Part shown: in pieces, positions 3,045-35,307 of the stretch
Layout of the letters: each line of letters starts with the position of its first letter
Position numbering within the stretch: the stretch's first letter is position 1
Source: a virus
DNA: 62,803 nt
Virus record (IMG/VR): IMGVR_UViG_3300030106_006483
Coordinates: 1-62,803 of that record
Reading direction: 5' to 3' (one strand)
Notes under the pieces: model-generated
What the model was told of the DNA's origin: nothing
The model's input: only the letters and a program-made list of their open reading frames with translations
Databases searched by the model: none
Made by a program: the position numbers and the translations under genes

Positions 3045-3566
3045 CGGAAGCTTTGGTTTTACGTCTTCAGGCTTTACCCCTTTTGGTGGGTCCTTCTTTA
3101 CTAACATTACAGCGTTGTCATCAGTTATTTGGTCAATACGCTTATCTAATTCCTGTTCTGATAAGTCTTCTAATTTCCCGGTTCTAACTATTTTTTGTTC
3201 TACATATAATCCACCAACATGTCCTCTTGCTTTCTCAGCAATGGTAGCTGCAGAAAAAGATTTTGCTTTGATGGCTTCATCTCTAATTCTACCTAGTTCA
3301 GTTAGGTGACCTCCATAAGATACACCATATTTTTTATTACGTTCTTCCCTTAGTAGTCCAATGTATTTATGTACTTCAGGAGATAGTTTAGGGTGTTGTA
3401 GTTCATATGCCTCTTGTCGTGCTCTATTCTTACTGTATCCAGCTTCAATGGCACATTCATAAGCATACTTACGTCCTTCAAAAAATACCAATAGTTCGGC
3501 AAACTTTGCCTGCATAGGTGTAAGTCGTGGTGCGGGTCCTCGTTTTTTCTTCACAATTTCCGTCAT
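3036..3566 (-). CDS. terS: Terminase small subunit-like protein
   Basis: The protein has the helix-turn-helix layout of small terminases (Terminase_2-like): LTPMQAKFAELLV, a helix with AYECAIEAGYSKNRARQEAYEL, and PEVHKYI. These subunits recognise packaging DNA and regulate the large subunit. The frame is open to a TTG at 3575, but the ATG at 3566 (MTEIVKKKRG, 176 residues) is preferred because a promoter -10 lies at 3574-3579, so the transcript would start at about this ATG. It is on the opposite strand and about 5.7 kb from the large subunit, an unusual arrangement. The C-terminus (PPKGVKPEDVKPKLPLT) could contact the large subunit. Confidence 0.75.
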   Translation of the reverse strand: MTEIVKKKRGPAPRLTPMQAKFAELLVFFEGRKYAYECAIEAGYSKNRARQEAYELQHPKLSPEVHKYIGLLREERNKKYGVSYGGHLTELGRIRDEAIKAKSFSAATIAEKARGHVGGLYVEQKIVRTGKLEDLSEQELDKRIDQITDDNAVMLVKKDPPKGVKPEDVKPKLPLT

Positions 3567-3568
3567 AG

Positions 3569-3597
3569 TTGACAATATAAATAGATTATCTTATAAA
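3569..3597 (+). promoter_or_regulatory. Sigma-70 promoter for 3605 operon
   Basis: TTGACA at 3569-3574, a 17-base spacer and TATAAA at 3592-3597. The ATG of the next gene begins 7 bases after the -10, where transcription should start, so the mRNA is probably leaderless. It overlaps the opposite-strand terS promoter. Confidence 0.75.
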
Positions 3598-3602
3598 GTC
3601 AA
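3574..3602 (-). promoter_or_regulatory. Sigma-70 promoter for terS
   Basis: Read on the minus strand, TTGACT (3602-3597), a 17-base spacer and TATATT (3579-3574). The terS ATG at 3566 lies 7 bases downstream of the -10, again predicting a leaderless mRNA. The two promoters overlap and should exclude each other. Confidence 0.7.
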
Positions 3603-3604
3603 AT

Positions 3605-3871
3605 ATGAAAGATAAGCGCACATATACTAATATAAAGGAATACAACGAAGAAATGACATATGAAAATGAAGTGAAAATATCACATGATGATAGAGGATCA
3701 GGTGATTTAACTTTTCAAATAGAACAATTAACTAAACAGAAAGAATTTTTACAAGATAAATGCCGACAGGCTGGTGAGACGATTGATGGACTCAGGAAAG
3801 AATTAGATAGATTGTCGGAAGAAAACGGTAACTTAATGACATTGTTGGGAGATAAAAATGTTAAAGGGTAG
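3605..3871 (+). CDS. Coiled-coil protein, unknown
   Basis: An 88-residue acidic protein whose second half (about 37-82) shows heptad-like leucines: QIEQLTKQKEFLQDKCRQAG and then IDGLRKELDRLSEENGNL, which is a coiled coil. No Shine-Dalgarno precedes the ATG, and the overlapping promoter placement suggests leaderless translation. The next gene overlaps its end. Confidence 0.7.
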   Translation: MKDKRTYTNIKEYNEEMTYENEVKISHDDRGSGDLTFQIEQLTKQKEFLQDKCRQAGETIDGLRKELDRLSEENGNLMTLLGDKNVKG

Positions 3872-4094
3872 AGATCTTATTATGATCTTCGAGAGATTCG
3901 TAGGTCCTAAACAGAAAGCAAGTGTTACTCAAGATGCTCGAGTTCAAGTTCGTACGCCGGATGGGCGACATTATGACATCAAAGGTGTAGATTTAGTTGA
4001 AAATAAATTAATTGGTGCTAGAGAGACTCACAGGATTGTAATCTCTACGCACGAAGAAGTCGCTAAAATGGGTAAACCTAAGCTCATTGTGTAA
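3858..4094 (+). CDS. Hypothetical protein
   Basis: A 78-residue protein, likely a small beta-rich fold (VQVRTPDGRHYDIKGVDLVE, then THRIVISTHEEVAK). It overlaps the coiled-coil gene by 14 bases. An internal ATG at 3882 (MIFERF) could be the real start. No family recognised. Confidence 0.6.
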   Translation: MLKGRDLIMIFERFVGPKQKASVTQDARVQVRTPDGRHYDIKGVDLVENKLIGARETHRIVISTHEEVAKMGKPKLIV

Positions 4095-4117
4095 ACATTT
4101 GTAACCTCGGTTTTTTA

Positions 4118-4486
4118 ATGCGTCCAGAAACAAAATTATGGCATGATTTTAAAAAACATACACCGCAAATTAGTTGGACTAGACTTGAAAATTCTTCTGT
4201 ATTGGGCACTCCCGATCTATTGGGTTATAATACTTTTGGTACCTTTTTTACAGTAGAGTTAAAGGTTATTTCGGGTTACAAATTACGCCTCTCCCCACAT
4301 CAAATTGCGTTTCATGTGAAACATCCACAGCACACATTTATACTTGCCTGGAAGGCCTCTCGAAGAGAGTACAAAATGTTTCCAGGCTCTAGTATCTTGA
4401 CACTAGTAAAAGATGGATTTAAGTCACCTGCTGCTTGTGACTATGGGCTTGTAGCTTGCGGGTTATATCTTCAGAATCTTCAGTAG
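4118..4486 (+). CDS. PD-(D/E)XK nuclease, resolvase-like
   Basis: The 122-residue protein matches small VRR-NUC/Holliday-junction-resolvase-like nucleases: LEN (Glu24), GTPDL (Asp33), VELKV (Glu47-x-Lys49) and SPHQIAFH with Gln62. Such enzymes cut branched DNA during replication or packaging. The last ~20 residues (SPAACDYGLVACGLYLQNLQ) are encoded inside the AAGCTTG-type repeat block, so the ancestral C-terminus may have been altered by repeat growth. It converges on leftward genes. Confidence 0.75.
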   Translation: MRPETKLWHDFKKHTPQISWTRLENSSVLGTPDLLGYNTFGTFFTVELKVISGYKLRLSPHQIAFHVKHPQHTFILAWKASRREYKMFPGSSILTLVKDGFKSPAACDYGLVACGLYLQNLQ

Positions 4487-4610
4487 CTTGTGGCTTGCAG
4501 CTTGTAGCTGTAGTAGCTGGTGGCTTGTAGCTTGTAACTTTAGTAGCTTGTAGCTTACGTAGTTTCCGGAGCTCCGCATAATACTTAGGATGTCTCCAGA
4601 CGTGAGTCAC
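4419..4610 (-). CDS. Repeat-encoded small protein, doubtful
   Basis: A 63-residue frame with a GTG start (MTHVWRHPKYYAELRKLRKL) runs into a tail written by the AAGCTTG-type repeat (KLQAT, SYKPPAT and SCKPQAT units). The N-terminal 20 residues look like protein, and the GTG overlaps a preceding short frame's stop, but the rest may simply be repeat read-through. It overlaps the convergent nuclease gene by 68 bases. Confidence 0.35.
   Translation of the reverse strand: MTHVWRHPKYYAELRKLRKLQATKVTSYKPPATTATSCKPQATEDSEDITRKLQAHSHKQQVT
4431..4560. repeat. Degenerate AAGCTTG-type repeat block 1
   Basis: Short units such as GTAGCTTGTGGCTTGCAG and its variants (GTAGCTTG, GGCTTGTA, CAGCTTGTAGC) are strung together about ten times. 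The 12-base TTGTAACTTTAG within it recurs in block 2 (5374-5385). Confidence 0.8.
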
Positions 4611-4679
4611 TTTTTAATTTTCAGGAATCTTAATAATTTACACATCTTGCAATAACATAACCAGTTATATTCGTATTGC

Positions 4680-5291
4680 TTAATGTTTCGGATAAGCCAC
4701 ATTGTTCACCCCCTTGTCCCAGCATTGTCTACAGCTGCCGCATTCATTGCCCTGATCCTGTGCCGGGCAGGTCTTGCCTGCCTGGACTACAGTCGACGTA
4801 TGAGGCCAAAAGTTAACTGGCCTCTGGTCTATCATATGCGAGGACACACGAATGATTAAATTTTTTGGTACAACCTCAGGTTGTATGCCTTTTAATATTT
4901 TTACTTCTCGCGTTGGCATCCAGTGCTGCACGGCCGGCGTGGCTGTGCATACTTCGAATATATTGTTGAGATGATCAAGCCCCTGCAGGTCACCAGAGTC
5001 ATGCCACCTAAACCATGGAACCTTCCTGCTGTACCAGGCCACCAGCGTGGTCATTGCTTCCACCCATTGTGGATGAGTTAAAGAATTCAACCTACGGGTG
5101 AGCGCGTCTTTTACATTTCTAAATCTATATCTCCCCTTCATGGCATAACAGCCGGCGCAGACTGAGCCCGCCACGGCTTGCAGCTTCACCCCTGTGATAC
5201 ACTTCCAGGCTGGCAGGTTGTAGGCGTAACCAGGCATCTTTGATGGAGCTGACAGGCCGCCGGTTATTTCTTTAGCTTCTTTTAATTTCAT
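4680..5291 (-). CDS. GP88-like cysteine protein
   Basis: The 203-residue protein resembles the phage/plasmid 'gene product 88' family of unknown function. Signature parts are CAGCYAMKGRY (residues 45-55), RWHDSGDL (95-102), WMPTR (124-128) and a C-terminal cluster Cys175, Cys184, Cys187, Cys190. The two cysteine groups suggest a metal or iron-sulfur site. Its DNA is clearly more GC-rich than the neighbours, and the gene is bracketed by repeat blocks 1 and 2, both signs of recent acquisition. It has its own promoter (5304-5332) with almost no leader. Confidence 0.75.
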   Translation of the reverse strand: MKLKEAKEITGGLSAPSKMPGYAYNLPAWKCITGVKLQAVAGSVCAGCYAMKGRYRFRNVKDALTRRLNSLTHPQWVEAMTTLVAWYSRKVPWFRWHDSGDLQGLDHLNNIFEVCTATPAVQHWMPTREVKILKGIQPEVVPKNLIIRVSSHMIDQRPVNFWPHTSTVVQAGKTCPAQDQGNECGSCRQCWDKGVNNVAYPKH

Positions 5292-5303
5292 ATTTCTGTA
5301 TCC

Positions 5304-5332
5304 TATATAATCTTATAATACTAGTTTGTCAA
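5304..5332 (-). promoter_or_regulatory. Sigma-70 promoter for the GP88-like gene
   Basis: On the minus strand TTGACA (5332-5327), 17-base spacer and TATATA (5309-5304). The gene's ATG (5291) is only 12 bases past the -10, giving an mRNA leader of about 5-6 bases without a ribosome-binding site. Confidence 0.7.
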
Positions 5333-5380
5333 GCTTGCAGCTTGTGGCTTCAGTAGCCTGTAGCTTGCGGCTTGTAACTT
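5331..5380. repeat. Degenerate AAGCTTG-type repeat block 2
   Basis: Contains AAGCTTGCAGCTTGTGGCTT, GTAGCCTGTAGCTTGCGG and CTTGTAACTT, the same family as block 1. It overlaps the -35 of the GP88-like gene promoter. Confidence 0.75.
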
Positions 5381-5395
5381 TAGAATCATTCTAAA
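5379..5395. promoter_or_regulatory. 17-bp palindromic operator-like site, copy 1
   Basis: Perfect palindrome TTTAGAAT-C-ATTCTAAA. The same arms with a different central base occur at 6842-6858. It lies about 50 bases upstream of the GP88-like gene promoter and just after the stop of the upstream leftward gene. Repetition of an exact 8-base arm suggests a binding site for a dimeric regulator. Confidence 0.6.
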
Positions 5396-5400
5396 CTGGC

Positions 5401-5652
5401 CTATTTAACATACTCGCGCATGCTGTAGGCTAGGCCATCAATTTGTTCCCATAACCATTCACCTGAGCTGCCCTGGTGCGGTTCCCATGCCCACTCTTCC
5501 AGATATTTATTTAATTTTTTATCAGTCCACTTGTCAAAGTCCTGAGGCAGGTGCTGCCCCAGGTAATGACCAGATGCCCATATCAAATCCTGTTTACGCT
5601 TTTTCTCTATGGATACCTGATTTTTTTTAGTTTGTTTTTTTTGCATTTCCAC
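5401..5652 (-). CDS. Hypothetical Trp-rich protein
   Basis: An 83-residue protein with a basic start (MEMQKKQTKKNQVSIEKKRK) and a tryptophan-rich body (DKWTDKKLNKYLEEWAWEPH, SGEWLWEQIDGLAYSMREYV). It overlaps the upstream gene by 26 bases, so the two are translationally coupled. No family recognised. Confidence 0.65.
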   Translation of the reverse strand: MEMQKKQTKKNQVSIEKKRKQDLIWASGHYLGQHLPQDFDKWTDKKLNKYLEEWAWEPHQGSSGEWLWEQIDGLAYSMREYVK

Positions 5653-6193
5653 CTTGTATGATTACATTGTCACCATCGAACCCGGCACCCTTCAACATGT
5701 CTCCAATTTTAGAGATCATCTTAACTTCAGCGTGCTTTTCGTGTTTGTCTTTGTATTTAATATATTCCTTGTTCATGATCACAGGCTCAAATTTAGAGTG
5801 GTACCAGATACCACCATCATAAGAGTTTTTTAATTTTTCTGTGGGAATATATTGAGATGATGATACATGCCATTGATCATTTTTAAAGATGTAAATATAT
5901 TCAATATGACAGTCACCTCTCATATTATACATGTACATCCACTCATCTCTGTAGGTTTTGGCTAGATCTTCTTCTCTGTCCCAGTCTCTTCCATAAAAGC
6001 TACATTCATTTATGGTATCTCCCAGGTAGCTGGCATCTCCATAATTAAATAGTTCTTTTGCCAAATCATATTTATTATAATGATCAACCAGGCATTTTCC
6101 TACGCCATATGGATACCCATCACTGTGAACATATATTACTTTTACTTTTTTTGTCTTTGGGTCTTCTATTGCTATATTGCTTCGTGTACTCAT
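5627..6193 (-). CDS. Conserved phage protein of the STRSNIAI family
   Basis: The 188-residue protein begins MSTRSNIAIEDPKTKKVKVI and continues YVHSDGYPYGVGKCLVDHY, a pattern I know from many phages, plasmids and some bacteria; the function is unknown. In those proteins the first domain binds no obvious cofactor and is followed by GDASYLGD-type text, present here at about 52-59. The C-terminal part is charged and less conserved. A GAGG ribosome-binding site precedes the ATG. Confidence 0.75.
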   Translation of the reverse strand: MSTRSNIAIEDPKTKKVKVIYVHSDGYPYGVGKCLVDHYNKYDLAKELFNYGDASYLGDTINECSFYGRDWDREEDLAKTYRDEWMYMYNMRGDCHIEYIYIFKNDQWHVSSSQYIPTEKLKNSYDGGIWYHSKFEPVIMNKEYIKYKDKHEKHAEVKMISKIGDMLKGAGFDGDNVIIQGGNAKKTN

Positions 6194-6214
6194 TTTTCCT
6201 CTCTTTCTATTCCT

Positions 6215-6243
6215 ATCTTATATTATATAGGATCAATTGTCAA
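6215..6243 (-). promoter_or_regulatory. Sigma-70 promoter for STRSNIAI gene
   Basis: On the minus strand TTGACA (6243-6238), 17-base spacer, TAAGAT (6220-6215). The ATG at 6193 is preceded by a GAGG ribosome-binding site. Confidence 0.55.
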
Positions 6244-6318
6244 GTATTATTTTTAAGCTTGCCGCTTGATGCTTTGACCAGTAACCGCCCACTACTAGCT
6301 AACGCGGGATTCTGTTAC

Positions 6319-6490
6319 TGATCCCAGATCCACCAGGTGCATGTAAGACATTAAAGATCTGCCTAGTGGATCAGGGATCAGGAGATGAGTATGTAGGTAC
6401 AAATTCATCTCAAGTCCTGATCCCAGACCCTACGTTGCAGTAGTTACTACAAGCTTAGCATACACAGCAGGGTCAGGGATCAGGGGGCAT
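6319..6490. other. Cluster of TGATCCC-based hairpins
   Basis: A 19-base arm at 6319-6337 pairs with 6362-6380 (two mismatches) around a 24-base loop. GATCAGGA (from about 6377) pairs with TCCTGATC near 6414-6421. TGATCCCAGACCCT pairs with AGGGTCAGGGATCA near 6470-6483 (one mismatch). The heptamer TGATCCC or its complement recurs at least four times. It could be a structured RNA, a binding array or a replication origin; the sequence does not decide. Confidence 0.6.
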
Positions 6491-6517
6491 CTAAACAAGT
6501 AGCCCCCAGAATTCTAT

Positions 6518-6763
6518 TTAAAATGGCATATCTTCAGTTATATTTACTTCTTTGCCATTCGTTTTGGTTTCAACTTCATTAGTTAAAATCAAAGCTGGGT
6601 TTTCTTGAGCTTGAGTAATAAAGAACATCACATTTTCATTCTCTTCTAAAAGACTTAAAGCTGACAAATATTGATTTGCCTCCTTAATTGTCTTTGCCCA
6701 TTTGGACACAGAATAATCTTCAGAATATTCTGTTTTATATTTTCGTATTATTAAGTATATCAT
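6518..6763 (-). CDS. Hypothetical protein
   Basis: An 81-residue protein of mixed alpha/beta appearance (MIYLIIRKYKTEYSEDYSVS) with an acidic end (VNITEDMPF). It has its own promoter (6792-6820) and an AGAGG ribosome-binding site. It stands apart from the other leftward genes, behind the hairpin cluster. Function unknown. Confidence 0.65.
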   Translation of the reverse strand: MIYLIIRKYKTEYSEDYSVSKWAKTIKEANQYLSALSLLEENENVMFFITQAQENPALILTNEVETKTNGKEVNITEDMPF

Positions 6764-6791
6764 ATATCCTCTTTCTGTCTAATTAACCCAC

Positions 6792-6820
6792 ATTATATCA
6801 GATTAACCCATAAATAGCAA
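6792..6820 (-). promoter_or_regulatory. Sigma-70 promoter for 6518-6763
   Basis: On the minus strand TTGCTA (6820-6815), 17-base spacer and a perfect TATAAT (6797-6792). Confidence 0.6.
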
Positions 6821-6841
6821 GTACCAAATTGTCGCACCTAC

Positions 6842-6858
6842 TTTAGAATTATTCTAAA
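6842..6858. promoter_or_regulatory. 17-bp palindromic operator-like site, copy 2
   Basis: TTTAGAAT-T-ATTCTAAA, same arms as 5379-5395. It sits 9 bases upstream of the -35 of the strong rightward promoter at 6868 and about 20 bases upstream of the leftward promoter, a good place to control both. Confidence 0.6.
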
Positions 6859-6867
6859 AGAAAGTTA

Positions 6868-6896
6868 TTGACAATTATATTAATATAGTATATTAT
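6868..6896 (+). promoter_or_regulatory. Strong sigma-70 promoter for early-type genes
   Basis: TTGACA (6868-6873), 17-base spacer, TATTAT (6891-6896). The leader then carries a GAGAGGA ribosome-binding site before the ATG at 6933. Confidence 0.75.
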
Positions 6897-6932
6897 CCTA
6901 TATATGCAAATAAAAAAAGAAAGAGAGGACAA

Positions 6933-7910
6933 ATGAGTAGACTACGATTAAATCAAGAGTACAGAAATAAAATCGCAAATCGTATGCGAGTACATCTTGA
7001 ACAAGAAGATACTATTGAAAAACAAAACTATGACAAGTTAAAAGGTGAACAAATTGACTTGAATGACAATGCTTGGAAAATGGCAGAAAAAATAGTTAGA
7101 CGACATTATACCGAAGATGATGTTGCTAAAGCACAATATCTTCAAAACAAGTTTGAAAATGTTGATACTATTGCAAAGGATAGTTGTTTCCATTTTCATT
7201 ATCTTGGAACTAAAGAAACAAGAGATTATGACAACAATGCTAGAGTTGAGGACGCAACAATAGAAAGTCATTTTGATTTTAGATTAAATGGAAGTATTGA
7301 TACTGACAATAATTATTCATCTTCAAGAGATAGTGCTTATGGTTATGCTTTATATCGTGATGAACTAAAAGCACAAGATGATTGCAACCCAGATATTTTG
7401 ATTGAACAAGAGGGCAAAGACAACAACCCACATAAAACAAAATATTGTGATAACAATAATAAATATCTTGGTGATGATGACAAAGGTTATGGCAAACAAT
7501 GGAATGAAAAATATCAATTAGATTTAATTGGTAGAAATTATTGTCGTGATAGGTCTATTGCGTGTACTGAGCAAGAGTATATGTTTTTAATAGATTGGAA
7601 AAAACAAAAATCACAATTTGTTATTGCACATCAAAAATGGATTAAATCTATTTTAGACCAGATGAAAGAAATTAAAGTTGGTTTAAAAGGTTATAAATAT
7701 TTAGACGAGGCGATTGAACTTTCAACAGAACTTGGCTTGAATATTTCTGACGCAGAAATAATCAGAACAAACTCAACTGGCTTAACTATCTACAATCCTA
7801 AAAATCTGGCAGACAGAATAAAAGGAATGAAGAATAAGAGAGTTAAGACCAAAGCAGAAAAAATAGCAGAAAGGTTATTATACGAGCAACAAAAACAAAG
7901 TGTAAATTAA
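6933..7910 (+). CDS. Hypothetical early protein, possibly Nmad5-like
   Basis: A 325-residue hydrophilic protein, first gene behind a strong promoter. Its start (MSRLRLNQEYRNKIANRMRV) and overall layout faintly recall the 'nucleotide modification associated domain 5' phage proteins, but I cannot confirm this. The middle is rich in Asp/Asn (DIDTDNNYSS-like text); the C-terminal part (from about 225) has helices and ends in a basic segment (IKGMKNKRVKTKAEKIAERL). Position and promoter suggest an early takeover or DNA-modification-related role, which is inference. Confidence 0.7.
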   Translation: MSRLRLNQEYRNKIANRMRVHLEQEDTIEKQNYDKLKGEQIDLNDNAWKMAEKIVRRHYTEDDVAKAQYLQNKFENVDTIAKDSCFHFHYLGTKETRDYDNNARVEDATIESHFDFRLNGSIDTDNNYSSSRDSAYGYALYRDELKAQDDCNPDILIEQEGKDNNPHKTKYCDNNNKYLGDDDKGYGKQWNEKYQLDLIGRNYCRDRSIACTEQEYMFLIDWKKQKSQFVIAHQKWIKSILDQMKEIKVGLKGYKYLDEAIELSTELGLNISDAEIIRTNSTGLTIYNPKNLADRIKGMKNKRVKTKAEKIAERLLYEQQKQSVN

Positions 7911-8396: not shown

Positions 8397-8724
8397 CTGG
8401 TGTCATAATCCCAGTTGCCATACAATCCAAACGCAATCAAGGATTCGAGGAACTGGCGACAATAAAGTTTTAAGAACTAGAAGAATTAAAACTTATGGCA
8501 ACGATTGTATATGGACTTATTTTTGTAATCAATCTTGCTTAATGCAATTCTTAAATAATTTTGCGAGAGAAGTTGCTAACATTAGACCAGTACGAGAACC
8601 CAGTGAAAAACCGATAAAAGTTAGAACAGAAAAATATGAAAATTATAGATATAGGTGGAATGGTAACGAACATACAAGAGAGCCTTATCAAGCGACAAGG
8701 AAAATAATTGAAAATAGTTCTTGA
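8383..8724 (+). CDS. Small zinc-binding protein, TRASH/MYM-like
   Basis: The 113-residue protein carries Cys7-x4-Cys12 (WCHNPSC) and Cys48-x3-Cys52 in YFCNQSCLMQFL. The second is typical of MYM/TRASH-like treble-clef zinc modules. The remainder is basic and Tyr/Arg-rich, suggesting nucleic-acid binding. It sits among early-type genes, and its 3' end contains the next promoter. Confidence 0.65.
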   Translation: MSDYNWCHNPSCHTIQTQSRIRGTGDNKVLRTRRIKTYGNDCIWTYFCNQSCLMQFLNNFAREVANIRPVREPSEKPIKVRTEKYENYRYRWNGNEHTREPYQATRKIIENSS

Positions 8725-8749
8725 CAATGCTTGATCTTTCCTATATAAT
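8721..8749 (+). promoter_or_regulatory. Consensus sigma-70 promoter
   Basis: TTGACA (8721-8726), 17-base spacer, TATAAT (8744-8749). The -10 is followed by CCCA as at 7943, then by a GCGAGGA ribosome-binding site and the ATG at 8772. Confidence 0.85.
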
Positions 8750-8771
8750 CCCAGATATGAAAGCGAGGAAT

Positions 8772-9011
8772 ATGAAAACAGATACAGACAATAGAACAGA
8801 AGAAAGAAGAAACAGATTCAATGGCGAATCTGTTATGCTAACTAAAGAAGAAGCAGACAAACATGACGCGTTGTTTATGCATGAACTAATGGCAACAATA
8901 GAAGATAAGACACTAGGCACAGGTGCGAGCAAGCACTGGCAAGAGATGAGAAATCATCTTGATTGGTTTATGAAGAATAATGCCAAAGCATACATGGTTC
9001 TATTAGATTAA
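8772..9011 (+). CDS. Hypothetical protein
   Basis: A 79-residue hydrophilic, helical protein (MKTDTDNRTEERRNRFNGES). The frame is open upstream to a TTG at 8721, but that codon is the promoter -35, so the ATG at 8772 with GCGAGGA before it is the start. It ends just before a terminator, so it is a one-gene transcript with a very strong promoter. Function unknown. Confidence 0.7.
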   Translation: MKTDTDNRTEERRNRFNGESVMLTKEEADKHDALFMHELMATIEDKTLGTGASKHWQEMRNHLDWFMKNNAKAYMVLLD

Positions 9012-30412: not shown

Positions 30413-33058
30413 ATGGCAAATGGCGGAATTATCGGACCTGTTAATACAGTCGCAGGCAAACCAGCACAATTAACAACTCAGATTAATTCTACTGGATCTC
30501 ATACACTTCAATCAACAACATCAACTGTAGATTTTATAGCAGTCGCTGCCGGAGGTGGTGGAGGCGGTAACTATGGTGGCGGTGGTGGAGCAGGTGGAGT
30601 TTTAAAAAGTTTTTGTAATGCATGTTTAGCAGCAATTCCAGTTTGTGGAGGAGCAAGTGTCCCAGTAACAATTAATGGTGGTGGATCGGGTGGAGTAAAT
30701 AGTGGACCTGGTCAAGGAGGAGATGGTGGTACTTCAGTAGTAATATTAGGTGGAACAACTTACACAGCAACCGGTGGCGGTGGCGGTGGTGGTCGTGGTA
30801 TGACAGGTGGTAGAGATGGTGGATCTGGTGGTGGTAAATCTGCGGGATCTGCAGGATCAGGAAATACACCGGCGATCGCGGCACCCTTAGGAGGACCTCA
30901 AGGAAACGCAGGTGGTGGAACTGCTTGTGGTGCTGGGGGTGGTGGCCGTGGCGAAGCTGGTTGTACCGATGGAACAAGAGCAGGTGGTGATGGAATTGCA
31001 TTAACAATTGGTGGAACACCTTATACACTCGCAGGTGGTGGTGGAGGTGGTGGACCAACAGGTTGTCCAGGAACTTCTCCAGGTGGAGATGGAGGTGGTG
31101 GAAATGGATCATTAACTGCTGAAGGATCGGCAGGAACTACAAACACTGGCGGTGGCGGTGGCGGTGGAAATAGTACACCTTTCGTTAATGGTAAAACTGG
31201 TGGTTCAGGAACAGTAATTCTTCAAGAAAATTATACATGCGGCCAACAGGCCCCAGGTGTTTGGCAACTGAACACCGTATATGATTTCGTAAAAAATGAT
31301 AATTGGATTTATAATCAAGCAGATGTAGATTATTTAGTAGTAGCCGGAGGTGGTGGAGGTGGTTATCAATCAACTGGAGGTGGTGGAGCTGGAGGTTATA
31401 GAGCTTCTGGTTACGGACCTTCTCCATTACAAGGATGTTCATTAAAGCTAAAATGGGGAACTTATCCTGTCACAGTTGGAGGCGGCGGTGCCGGTGCAAC
31501 TGGATCTGGATGTAGAGGAACAAGCGGACAAAATTCAGTTTTTGAAACAATTACTTCAAGCGGCGGTGGTGGCGGTGGAGGAGATGGTTCAATGACCGGT
31601 AATCCAGGAGGTTCTGGTGGTGGAGGAGCAAATGGTGGTGCTGGAGGATCAGGTAATGCAGGTGGATTTCCAAAAGCAGAAGGTCAAGATGGAGGTACGG
31701 CAACCCCTAGTTCTCCTTCAGGAGCAGGTGGTGGTGGAGCACTTGTAGCTGGTGCTGCAAATTCAGGACCCTCTGGAGGTGATGGTGGTGCAGGAGCACC
31801 AAATGCCATTACCGGATCAGCACTTTTTTATGCTGGTGGAGGTGGTGGAGGAAGTAGACCAGGTACTACCCCAGCCGCATCATCAGGTGGAGCTGGTGGA
31901 GGTGGACTCGGTGGAACTTGTGATGCAACAGGAACGGTTGGAACCGCAAATACTGGTGGTGGCGGTGGTAATGGAAGATCTAATGGAACGGGATGTTGTG
32001 CACCAGGTAGAACAGGTGGTCCAGGAGTCGTAATTTTAAGGTCATGTGCCTTTTTAAAAACAGATAGTAATTGTGCACCAGTTAGTTCACCTGATGGTGG
32101 TACAGGTACATTTATAGCAGAATTTAAAGCGTCAGCTAATGTAACCATTGGAGGCAGTGCTCCTTCTAATGGTTTTGATTATCTAGTAGTTGCTGGCGGT
32201 GGTGGCGGAGGTGGAATTTGTGGATCTGTTGCTTCTGGTGGTGGCGGAGGTGGAGCTGGTGGTTATAGAACTTCTTTTCCAGGCGGAACAAAAGTATTTT
32301 TAGAAACAGGATCTAATCAAGTAGTAGTAGGTGCTGGTGGAGCAGGTGGTATGGGTACCGCTTGTGGTCAAATTTCAACAATAGGAAAACCAGGTACTGA
32401 TTCTTATGTAGGATACATTACTTCTTTTGGTGGTGGAGGAGGTGGAGGAACCGCTTGTAATAGTATTGGATTCGGTACTGATAATGGACAACCAGGAGGA
32501 TCAGGTGGTGGTGCTGGAGCATGGGCTGGAAATAATGCCCCAGGTGGAACTGGAAATATTCCTGCCGTTAGTTCACCAGGCGCTCCTGTTCAAGGAAATA
32601 ATGGTGCCCCAAGTAATTCAGCAGGTGCATCAGGTTATGGATCTGCCGGAGGTGGTGGAGCATGTGCTGCCGGTAGTTCAGGAACCCCAACAGATGGTGG
32701 AGATGGTGGTGCAGGAAAAGCAAATTCAATTACAGGAGGCTCAGTTACCTATGCAGGTGGTGGTGGAGGATCTACTTATTCTGGTGGAAGTGGTGGAAGT
32801 GGAGGTGCCGGTGGTGGTGGAGCTGGAGCTACAGGTCCAGGTGTAGGAACTAATGGAACCGCAAATACTGGTGGTGGTGCAGGGGGAAGTAATAATAACG
32901 CATCTAGTGCAACAGGAGGCTCAGGAATCATTATTTTAAGAATACCAACAGCTTGTGCACCAGGTAGTTTAGCAGCTGCTCCAGGTACTAATACAATAAC
33001 AGTAGATGGGTCTTGTAAAGTAGCAACATTTACAGTAACTGGGACATTGACAGTATAG
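30413..33058 (+). CDS. Giant glycine-rich adhesin-like protein 1
   Basis: The 881-residue protein is dominated by glycine. It has three modules, each opening with a hydrophobic strand and poly-Gly (the second with VDYLVVAGGGGGG near 305, the third with FDYLVVAGGGGGG near 587), with GGYRASGYGP-type phrases, and closing with a strand like VILR. It ends with a domain shared with 33577-35307 (KVATFTVTGTLTV). Poly-Gly helices packed as in T4-like gp38 adhesins are a reasonable model. It probably recognises the host surface. The poly-Gly text reads as repeats on the other strand; those are not genes. Confidence 0.78.
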   Translation: MANGGIIGPVNTVAGKPAQLTTQINSTGSHTLQSTTSTVDFIAVAAGGGGGGNYGGGGGAGGVLKSFCNACLAAIPVCGGASVPVTINGGGSGGVNSGPGQGGDGGTSVVILGGTTYTATGGGGGGGRGMTGGRDGGSGGGKSAGSAGSGNTPAIAAPLGGPQGNAGGGTACGAGGGGRGEAGCTDGTRAGGDGIALTIGGTPYTLAGGGGGGGPTGCPGTSPGGDGGGGNGSLTAEGSAGTTNTGGGGGGGNSTPFVNGKTGGSGTVILQENYTCGQQAPGVWQLNTVYDFVKNDNWIYNQADVDYLVVAGGGGGGYQSTGGGGAGGYRASGYGPSPLQGCSLKLKWGTYPVTVGGGGAGATGSGCRGTSGQNSVFETITSSGGGGGGGDGSMTGNPGGSGGGGANGGAGGSGNAGGFPKAEGQDGGTATPSSPSGAGGGGALVAGAANSGPSGGDGGAGAPNAITGSALFYAGGGGGGSRPGTTPAASSGGAGGGGLGGTCDATGTVGTANTGGGGGNGRSNGTGCCAPGRTGGPGVVILRSCAFLKTDSNCAPVSSPDGGTGTFIAEFKASANVTIGGSAPSNGFDYLVVAGGGGGGGICGSVASGGGGGGAGGYRTSFPGGTKVFLETGSNQVVVGAGGAGGMGTACGQISTIGKPGTDSYVGYITSFGGGGGGGTACNSIGFGTDNGQPGGSGGGAGAWAGNNAPGGTGNIPAVSSPGAPVQGNNGAPSNSAGASGYGSAGGGGACAAGSSGTPTDGGDGGAGKANSITGGSVTYAGGGGGSTYSGGSGGSGGAGGGGAGATGPGVGTNGTANTGGGAGGSNNNASSATGGSGIIILRIPTACAPGSLAAAPGTNTITVDGSCKVATFTVTGTLTV

Positions 33059-33576: not shown

Positions 33577-35307
33577 ATGGCTAGTCCTTCAGGATCAGCA
33601 AACGGCGGTATTATAGGACAAACGAATAACTCTTCGTTTGGTAAGTGTACTATTACTACTAAAACAGCAACAGGTTGTTTTACAACACAACCAGGAACAA
33701 GAGTTGTTCAAGCTTTATTAGTCGCTGGCGGTGGATCAGGTGGATCTGGAGCTGCTGGTGGTGGCGGTGGAGCTGGTGGTTATCTATGCACTCAAGTAAA
33801 CGTCTGTGCATCAACAGCATACAAATTAACTATAGGGGGCGGAGGAGCAGCCACACCTGCAACAGGTGCTTGTGCTTGTGATTCATTAGGAAAAGGAACT
33901 TCTGGAGAATCTACAATATTATCTCCTGCACCTAGCGTGCCAACGGCTTTAGCAACGGCTGTTGGTGGAGGAGCAGCAGGTGGATTTAGAGATACACCGG
34001 GAGTACCTGGTGGATCAGGCGGAGGTGGTGGAGCTTTTAATCCTAGCGGTTGTCCAGGACCTAATCCAGGTGGAACTGGAACAGCTTGTCAAGGTAGTAA
34101 CGGAGGACTAGGTTTTAGAGCATGTGGAGTTGACGCTGGCGGTGGTGGCGGTGGTGCATCAGCTGTAGGAGCAAATGGTTGTGGTGGAGCCGGTGCTGGA
34201 AATGGTGGTGCTGGAAGTTCTGCATCTCCTTTATCTCCGTGCACATTTGGTGGTGGTGGCGGAGGTGGAGCTGATAGTACTGTGCCCGCAGCTGGAAGTG
34301 GTGGATCTGGCGGTGGTGGAGCCGGTGCAAAAGGACCCTCAGGTAATGGAACTGCAGGAACTGCAAACACTGGCGGTGGTGGCGGTGGAGGTGGTAATCC
34401 TGGAACGTCAGCAGGTGGAGCAGGTGGTTCTGGTAGAGCCGTAGTAAAAGAATTAACTAAAGCAAGTGGTGTGTGGTCACTGCAATCACAGTTTGAATCG
34501 CAAACAGCAGGAACATGGCCTAGATTTATAGCAACTTATCCAAGTGTAGATTATTTAGTAGTAGCCGGTGGTGGAGGAACTTTAGCGTGTACTCCCGCAT
34601 CAGCGGGTGGAGGTGGAGCTGGAGGTTATAGAGCTTCTGGTTATGGCCCTGCACCTTTACAAGGAACAGCTTTAACAGTGGAAGAAGGATGTCACGCAGT
34701 AGTAATTGGAGGTGGGGGAACAGGCCCTGCTGCTTGTAGTAGCGGACAAAATTCAAGTTTTGCTGCCGCAGAATCTTTTGGAATAACTTCAAGTGGTGGT
34801 GGTAGAGGTGGAGGTGGTCCTTCATGTACAGGAACAAATGCTGCGGGAGTACCCGGAGGTTCTGGAGGTGGTGGAGTTGGTTATGGAGGTTATGCTGGCG
34901 GTAGTGGTAATGCTGGAGGTTATACTCCTCCAGAAGGAAATCCAGGTGGTCAAGGTGGTGGATCATTTAATGGTGGTGGCGGTGGAGGCGCTGGTGGAGC
35001 AGGTTCTAATGGACCTCCAAGTGCTGCTGGAGCAGGAGTACCAAACGATATTTCAGGAAGTGGAGTAACATATGCTGCAGGTGGAGCAGGTCAACCTGGT
35101 GGACCAGGTGCAGCCGGAGGTAATAATACAGGAGATGGCGGTAATGCTCATCCAGCTGCAAAAGCTGGTGGTTCAGGAATTGTTATATTAAGATTTCCAG
35201 ATAGTGCAGGTTTAAGTGCCAGCCCAGGAACAAATACTGTAGCACCTGCGCCAGGTTCTACAAAAATTGCTACCTTTACTGTTACAGGGACTTTAACTGT
35301 TTCATAA
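33577..35307 (+). CDS. Giant glycine-rich adhesin-like protein 2
   Basis: The 576-residue protein has the same plan as 30413-33058 with two poly-Gly modules (VQALLVAGGGSGG near 43; VDYLVVAGGGGT near 324) and the same end (ASPGTNTVAPAPG, then TKIATFTVTGTLTVS). The GGAGGYRASGYGPAPLQG phrase is nearly identical in both, so one arose by duplication. Likely a host-recognition fibre tip or its alternative. It directly precedes the four oxygenases. Confidence 0.76.
   Translation: MASPSGSANGGIIGQTNNSSFGKCTITTKTATGCFTTQPGTRVVQALLVAGGGSGGSGAAGGGGGAGGYLCTQVNVCASTAYKLTIGGGGAATPATGACACDSLGKGTSGESTILSPAPSVPTALATAVGGGAAGGFRDTPGVPGGSGGGGGAFNPSGCPGPNPGGTGTACQGSNGGLGFRACGVDAGGGGGGASAVGANGCGGAGAGNGGAGSSASPLSPCTFGGGGGGGADSTVPAAGSGGSGGGGAGAKGPSGNGTAGTANTGGGGGGGGNPGTSAGGAGGSGRAVVKELTKASGVWSLQSQFESQTAGTWPRFIATYPSVDYLVVAGGGGTLACTPASAGGGGAGGYRASGYGPAPLQGTALTVEEGCHAVVIGGGGTGPAACSSGQNSSFAAAESFGITSSGGGRGGGGPSCTGTNAAGVPGGSGGGGVGYGGYAGGSGNAGGYTPPEGNPGGQGGGSFNGGGGGGAGGAGSNGPPSAAGAGVPNDISGSGVTYAAGGAGQPGGPGAAGGNNTGDGGNAHPAAKAGGSGIVILRFPDSAGLSASPGTNTVAPAPGSTKIATFTVTGTLTVS

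Follow-up and report, generated by a model that had tools for sequence, protein, structure and literature searches.

In integrons, gene cassettes with variable cargo are bordered by attC elements. Rows of short motifs are described from two further systems. The KfrA operator of plasmid RA3 is reported as five 9-bp direct repeats overlapping the kfrA promoter, with repression depending on the number and orientation of the repeats and on oligomerisation (PMC7783346), and the site of TRAP (trp RNA-binding attenuation protein) in the Bacillus trp leader is given as 11 GAG/UAG triplets with 2 or 3 nonconserved nucleotides between them (PMC3913778). Here we describe arrays of the 5-mer CAAGC in a viral genome, the IMG/VR virus record IMGVR_UViG_3300030106_006483, of which the whole stretch of 62,803 bases was analysed (the window), and in its relatives. 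These arrays border a gene of the GP88 family and further accessory genes on the minus strand (Table 1).

The nearest described analogue found was the KfrA operator, which likewise consists of short direct repeats lined up at a promoter; in the phage, too, direct repeats of one orientation stand at promoter-like sequences, from which we infer regulation. Unlike that operator, the phage arrays combine 5 fixed with 2 or 3 free bases, occur several times for different genes and once between convergent genes, and their binding protein is putative. They resemble the TRAP site in that many copies of a short invariant motif, all in one orientation, are separated by 2 or 3 free bases, but the TRAP site is RNA in a leader, whereas the phage arrays are found upstream of promoters and between genes. 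As in integron cassettes, variable gene units lie between border elements of the same orientation; in contrast to them, the locus has no integrase among the ten open reading frames (ORFs) scanned and no attC-like hairpin, and its border is a row of 5-mers. No description of phage CAAGC arrays was found in the open-licence literature searched, mostly at the level of listings.

GP88 is encoded on the minus strand, and in that reading direction the repeat unit is CAAGC+NN with a period of 7 bp. The original prediction, made from the letters of the window alone, had spoken of AAGCTTG-type repeats, which are the reverse-strand look of this unit. With 2 mismatches allowed, GYRGCTTGYRGCTT matched 15 times in the window against 3.2 expected, a number reached in 0 of 100 shuffles; the matches cluster at 4444-4556 and 5330-5380, and one of the 15, at 5173, is inside GP88. 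Tandem Repeats Finder (TRF) gave a period of 7 with 10.0 copies in array 1 and 6.7 copies in array 2. Matches, shuffles and TRF together bear out two of the three repeat blocks originally proposed (4431-4560 and 5331-5380), and the 12-mer that these were said to share, TTGTAACTTTAG, indeed has just two exact matches in the window, at 4532 and 5372. The third block is a short imperfect run and weak by itself, as the same detector gives 0-3 such runs per shuffled window (30 shuffled windows); what supports it is the full arrays that relatives carry at that place. Array 1 recurs at the same place and in the same orientation in relatives, in the unbiased sample described below and in the isolate HTVC027P.

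In a set of 1655 heptads taken from relatives after dereplication, conservation at the five CAAGC positions is 91-99%, a figure biased upwards by the choice of heptads with at least 4 of 5 CAAGC matches, whereas the spacers, which were not selected, include all 16 dinucleotides. When neighbouring spacers were compared in 102 phage loci that had been sampled regardless of the repeat, 41 of 542 pairs were identical (chance 0.078); with the loci fetched by the pattern added, 160 of 964 were. Slippage copies would have identical spacers, and here neighbouring units are not copied over their whole length, so the arrays do not look like ordinary slippage repeats. Random spacers and the lack of long identical repeats suit protein binding better than homologous exchange.

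The large terminase (TerL) of the window shares 73% identity with its counterpart in Pelagibacter phage HTVC027P and 62% with that in HTVC023P, and on this ground the window is placed in the SAR11-infecting HTVC023P/HTVC027P group of pelagiphages. According to PMC9599517, phages of the HTVC023P type are widespread and rank among the most abundant pelagiphages, and the early genes of HTVC027P are all reported as being of unknown function (PMC12753301). HTVC027P has a GP88 homologue (49% identity) with arrays on either side. In 023Pt_psg01 (L312), which has a GP88 at 48% identity, the same places hold GCTCG/GCTTG-rich repeats of another pitch without heptads, as read from its sequence. HTVC023P and DSL-LC04 showed no array at the corresponding locus, and the 18 phage records that matched GP88 include neither of them.

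Two samples of relatives were used. The family contigs were reduced from 190 to 143 representatives by removing near-identical loci, and to 130 by setting aside 13 of the 143 without NUC (the gene at the left border), GP88 or the small terminase gene (TerS); they mix selected and unselected loci, L146-L190 having been fetched by the repeat itself. The unbiased sample consists of loci fetched only by g325 or TerS (158, dereplicated to 124), of which 91 were usable after the exclusion of 22 without NUC and 11 that were too short. Of 279 arrays in the 130 family contigs, 268 are located in the region between NUC and g325/g77, all 268 in the same orientation, while the remaining 11 have the opposite orientation and lie elsewhere in the contigs. 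In the unbiased sample 76 of 91 loci carry arrays; altogether 236 arrays fall within the region and none within the other 449,519 bp, and a single locus (1/91) has an array of opposite orientation in the region. Arrays and GP88 tend to occur together in these 91 loci (both in 71, GP88 only in 6, array only in 5, neither in 9; Fisher 9e-6). The family-contig arrays are found between NUC and GP88 (104), between GP88 and C188, the 188-aa accessory gene (51), between GP88 and g325 (30), and beyond C188, and many loci show the succession array-unit-array-unit-array, with one border more than there are units (n+1). These counts support that arrays of one family border minus-strand accessory units in most relatives.

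Where an array precedes a gene, it commonly abuts the -35 box. Upstream of GP88 the gap between CAAGC and TTGAC is 0 in 42 and 2 nt in 21 stretches, i.e. in 63 of 118, while upstream of C188, 18 of 73 stretches have a gap of 0 and 16 a gap of 11-13. The promoter scan, whose rule requires T at position 6 of the -10 hexamer, did not return the probable GP88 promoter of the window. Promoter control alone leaves array 1 unexplained because no promoter stands next to it, so a rule that ties arrays to promoters fails there, and a rule that places an array after the 3' end of every gene fails for the arrays upstream of C188 that have no minus-strand gene upstream. All cases are covered only by a border rule, under which every minus-strand unit is flanked by arrays on both sides.

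In a minority of relatives CAAGC recurs every 8 bp rather than every 7, with free spacers too (2 of 120 neighbours identical) and with the same register across the sites of one genome. The arrays after and before GP88 agree in register in 83 of 86 loci of clear class (73 both 7, 10 both 8); 3 are mixed, to which 2 ties are added (Fisher 2e-10, a value inflated by relatedness). The arrays before C188 and before GP88 agree in 21 of 21 loci. The closest homologue of a C188 protein frequently belongs to a genome that has the other register; in all 10 loci of this kind with a measurable array before C188, that array keeps the register of its own genome, a count that is partly circular, as the genome class was called over a stretch including those few units. 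The spacing upstream of C188 disagrees with the genome register in 2 of 39 loci. That arrays before C188 follow their own genome is a hint of a trans-acting factor.

A fixed 5-mer with free spacers, a fixed pitch that agrees between sites, a single orientation and abutment on the -35 box are as expected of an operator row for an oligomerising protein, and the arrays are confined to one region. We give about even chances to the reading that the arrays are rows of recognition sites for a putative oligomerising factor, which would fence and control each minus-strand accessory unit. A putative nucleic-acid-binding, oligomerising protein, probably encoded by the phage, would read CAAGC at a 7-bp register, or at 8 bp in some relatives. 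Bound in front of a gene, this factor would lie next to the -35 box and regulate the promoter, most simply by repression through occlusion, while between the convergent NUC and GP88 the bound array would act as a border separating units; such borders may also ease the exchange of cargo. A stronger version, a "register code", we consider unlikely: here an oligomeric phage protein would read CAAGC at the genome-specific pitch of 7 or 8, each accessory unit of the region would need borders of that pitch, and the arrays would be operator, insulator and entry ticket for exchangeable cargo at once.

Several observations weigh against the operator-row reading. No candidate binding protein was established and no gene was found to co-segregate with the register beyond relatedness, and a period of 7 or 8 bp sets neighbouring sites on different faces of B-DNA. 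Among the GP88-bearing loci of the unbiased sample, 6 of 77 have no array. Of the 118 GP88 upstream stretches, 40 lack TTGAC (32) or have no CAAGC within 20 nt of it (8), a class that includes ORFs with a probably misplaced start codon, upstream or downstream of the true one. Array 1 has no adjoining promoter, and Pseudomonas-type chromosomes, too, contain numerous CAAGCNN heptads, which there appear more slippage-like.

The main alternative on the purpose of the arrays is that they delimit exchange cassettes, i.e. that they provide shared homology and that units are inserted, deleted or swapped when the arrays of co-infecting phages recombine. We regard this as possible, though on the unlikely side. 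The n+1 border pattern of many loci fits it, as does the cargo: the 72 complete NUC-g325 intervals (71 with GP88 and 44 with C188, both of which were themselves baits in this sample) comprise 53 different sets of genes, L375 carries 120-aa and 82-aa genes in place of GP88 between its arrays, L156 carries a 68-aa gene and no GP88, and the close relatives L150, L159, L161, L162, L174, L176 and L178 have NUC and GP88 in common but differ in the units (c102, c50, c404 or none). However, the g325-TerL interval, which is free of arrays, is as variable (43 gene sets in 54 loci), and the break between L174 and L162 is at a gene start, outside the array. Homology breakpoints lie near arrays in 113 of 848 cases against 40.1 expected, and intergenic ones at arrays in 81 of 350 against 49.2 (1.65-fold), an enrichment for which differing gene rates of the neighbours could account. 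Discordance is 17/68 at NUC|GP88, which has the array, against 3/84 at g78|NUC, but the array-free g101|TerS is as discordant (15/43); breakpoint and discordance counts alike rest on locus pairs that are not independent. Correlations of pairwise identity between genes were low nearly everywhere and gave no clean cassette signal, and random spacers make for poor long homology. The original prediction of a repeat-delimited cargo cassette therefore holds in so far as the arrays border units and the cargo varies, while GP88 itself is nearly constant; neither of the outcomes named as speaking against it, the same genes in all relatives or repeats absent elsewhere, occurred. Its further suggestion of recombination at the repeats was not supported, array-free intervals being just as discordant and variable. 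From these comparisons, cargo exchange appears plausible.

On mechanism, the main alternative is a TRAP-like wrap of RNA, compatible with exchange cassettes, in which a ring- or filament-forming protein would wrap the AAGCNNC repeats of the minus-strand transcript (or of a single strand) for termination, processing or protection between units. The fixed orientation relative to the minus-strand genes, the short motif with 2 or 3 free bases, which fits the wrapping of a flexible strand, and the position of many arrays after genes, where they are read into small-ORF tails, agree with this; we nevertheless consider it decidedly unlikely, since arrays before C188 occur without a minus-strand gene upstream (at the C188|g325, C188|g77 and C188|g81 junctions), the flush abutment on the -35 box points to DNA, and no special RNA fold is predicted (array 1, z +0.5 and +1.2; array 2 with its palindrome, z -1.4 and -2.2). 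A search of Rfam with positions 3500-7500 of the window, at E up to 1, matched no RNA family, and an RNA family or special fold was set aside as an account of the arrays. A site for replication, packaging or partition, such as iterons or a pac site, is suggested by the proximity of TerS, which ends about 0.9 kb from array 1, and by the restriction of the arrays to this region, but its chances are slim: several arrays per genome extend over up to about 2 kb and are tied to accessory promoters, the register is held although the TerS of genomes with the 8-bp register share a median identity of 30%, HTVC023P, DSL-LC04 and 15 of 91 loci have no such arrays, and no turn of GC skew was found beyond that of the minus-strand genes. 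Lastly, functionless tandem repeats produced by slippage and tolerated in intergenic gaps could vary in length as the arrays do, and similar heptads in Pseudomonas chromosomes are mostly homogeneous; for the phage arrays we find this hardly credible, given random spacers next to a conserved 5-mer, one orientation in one region, and a register common to different sites of one genome.

The CAAGCNN heptads of Pseudomonas, Halomonas and Alcanivorax chromosomes have the same 7-bp unit as the phage arrays. They differ in that neighbouring spacers are mostly identical (589 of 659 in the Pseudomonas-type loci, which were selected by the pattern), that TTGAC follows in 1 of 101, and that they are scattered over both strands. 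In the Pseudomonas, Halomonas and Alcanivorax loci (L191-L310) heptad arrays are common, often just past stop codons, and 33 of 101 intergenic arrays are between convergent genes; the genome of L195 (G002) holds 88 forward and 62 reverse matches of four units. No description of these chromosomal heptads was found in the literature searched. Among alphaproteobacteria the heptad pattern was present in 3 of 385 genomes, one of them a seed picked for having it, and SAR11 is not singled out; integration of the phage into host repeats was rejected on this count.

Two further elements accompany the arrays. The palindrome TTTAGAATNATTCTAAA stands directly beside array 2. When at most 1 mismatch is allowed, relatives have 72 copies of it in 339,138 bp of the region and 12 in the 570,187 bp outside, and CAAGC comes within the next 30 nt in 46 of the 72. 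The palindrome looks like the operator of a dimeric regulator. At 6300-6500 the window has inverted repeats on CTGATCCCAGATCC / GGATCAGGGATCAG with a very stable predicted fold (z -5.2 and -5.5). This motif matches 206 times in the region of 118 relatives and 3 times elsewhere, has no Rfam match, is visible as a variant in 023Pt_psg01, and is possibly an RNA or DNA control element at the divergent border.

The GP88 identity proposed for the bordered gene was corroborated by its match to PF17338 (E 4e-29, 102.5 bits against a curated cut-off of 24.4). Its greater richness in GC was likewise found, at 0.497 against 0.365 for the window, and, in a comparison of the 12 ORFs richest in GC out of 56 with at least 100 aa, it has the highest GC at third codon positions (GC3, 0.534). 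However, GP88 exceeds its neighbours in GC in 123 of 123 loci (median +0.12) and is present in 71 of the 76 array-bearing loci of the unbiased sample. High GC is thus an old family trait and no sign of the recent gain that had been suggested. That the gene is on the opposite strand is correct, but TerS and the next three genes beyond GP88 are on the minus strand as well, so strand alone does not set it apart. The statement that no transposase is present holds for the ten ORFs around the locus that were scanned with Pfam, among which neither a transposase nor an integrase was found.

An alignment of 56 sequences shows seven invariant cysteines in GP88, including C31-X13-C45-X2-C48, which is near the cluster motif CX14CX2C given for QueE (PMC4389238). 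The structural model (predicted local distance difference test, pLDDT, 93.1; predicted template modelling score, pTM, 0.90) gave as best rows of the fold comparison QueE (Z 6.2, root-mean-square deviation 3.5 over 133), a viperin-like protein (5.9) and EpeE (5.6), all below a trustworthy level, and the best Foldseek E was 0.12. No other firm family appeared in the fold comparison, in which absence from the match list is no evidence. The model and the cysteines weakly suggest a radical-SAM-like (S-adenosylmethionine) Fe-S enzyme, and no evidence here makes GP88 a recombinase.

Table 1. Features of the array-bearing locus, in positions of the window.
Feature	Position	Strand	Remarks
NUC	4118..4486	+	122 aa, conserved, left border; PHROG 2165, annotated DNA helicase
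Small ORF downstream of GP88	4419..4610	-	HPKYYAELRK-type N-terminus conserved; C-terminal tail encoded by array 1
Array 1	4431..4560	-	~10 heptad units, CAAGC+NN on minus (GNNGCTTG on plus), TA interruptions; between convergent NUC and GP88/small ORF, overlaps NUC 3' end
GP88	4680..5291	-	203 aa, PF17338, seven invariant Cys; model weakly resembles radical-SAM enzymes
Probable GP88 promoter	5304..5332	-	TTGACA, 17 nt, TATATA; read by eye
Array 2	5330..5380	-	~6-7 heptad units; final CAAGC (5337-5333) adjoins TTGACA (5332-5327) upstream of GP88
Palindrome TTTAGAATNATTCTAAA	5379..5395		Adjoins array 2; repeated exactly at 6842-6858, close to g325 promoter
83-aa accessory ORF	5401..5652	-	Hypothetical
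C188, 188-aa accessory gene	5627..6193	-	PHROG 1987; in 44/72 complete intervals
Probable C188 promoter	6215..6243	-	TTGACA, 17 nt, TAAGAT; promoter scan, conserved in relatives
Block 3	6254..6276	-	Short imperfect run, 10 nt before -35 box of C188

NUC may be nuclease-like. Small ORFs homologous to the one downstream of GP88 are found at the same place in many relatives, among them gp32 in the annotation of HTVC027P. More generally, short ORFs after GP88 and, in many relatives, between arrays run into the arrays, which encode their K/Q/A/S/T-rich tails, while their starts are conserved (HPKYYAELRK, RIKHNDLxxxF, CHCSRCLDK and others). By inspection, CAAGCYR units, the common kind, contain no stop codon in any minus-strand frame, so coding is indicated only by the conserved starts and not by an open frame as such. 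HTVC027P_gp32 (L311, 7927-8175), annotated as an 83-aa hypothetical protein, is the ORF that runs through array 1, and its array-encoded tail may be no true protein.

Outside the bordered units, the g96 family is represented in the window by a plus-strand gene before the terminase (8721-9011), and its homologues are on the minus strand between NUC and g325 in L049, L061, L064, L177 and L185; this occurrence in two places and on two strands would be a sign of relocation between regions. Two long ORFs (30413-33058 and 33577-35307; GC 0.485 and 0.501, GC3 about 0.12) are full of GGT/GGA repeats and probably encode Gly-rich structural proteins. An ORF at 182-622 resembles peptide deformylase by eye, and a peptide deformylase is annotated at a comparable position in 023Pt_psg01.

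Oriented and conserved rows that resemble binding sites at accessory promoters offer a direct handle on gene regulation in pelagiphages, and perhaps on gene swapping, and the two registers of 7 and 8 bp constitute a built-in test for any candidate binding protein.

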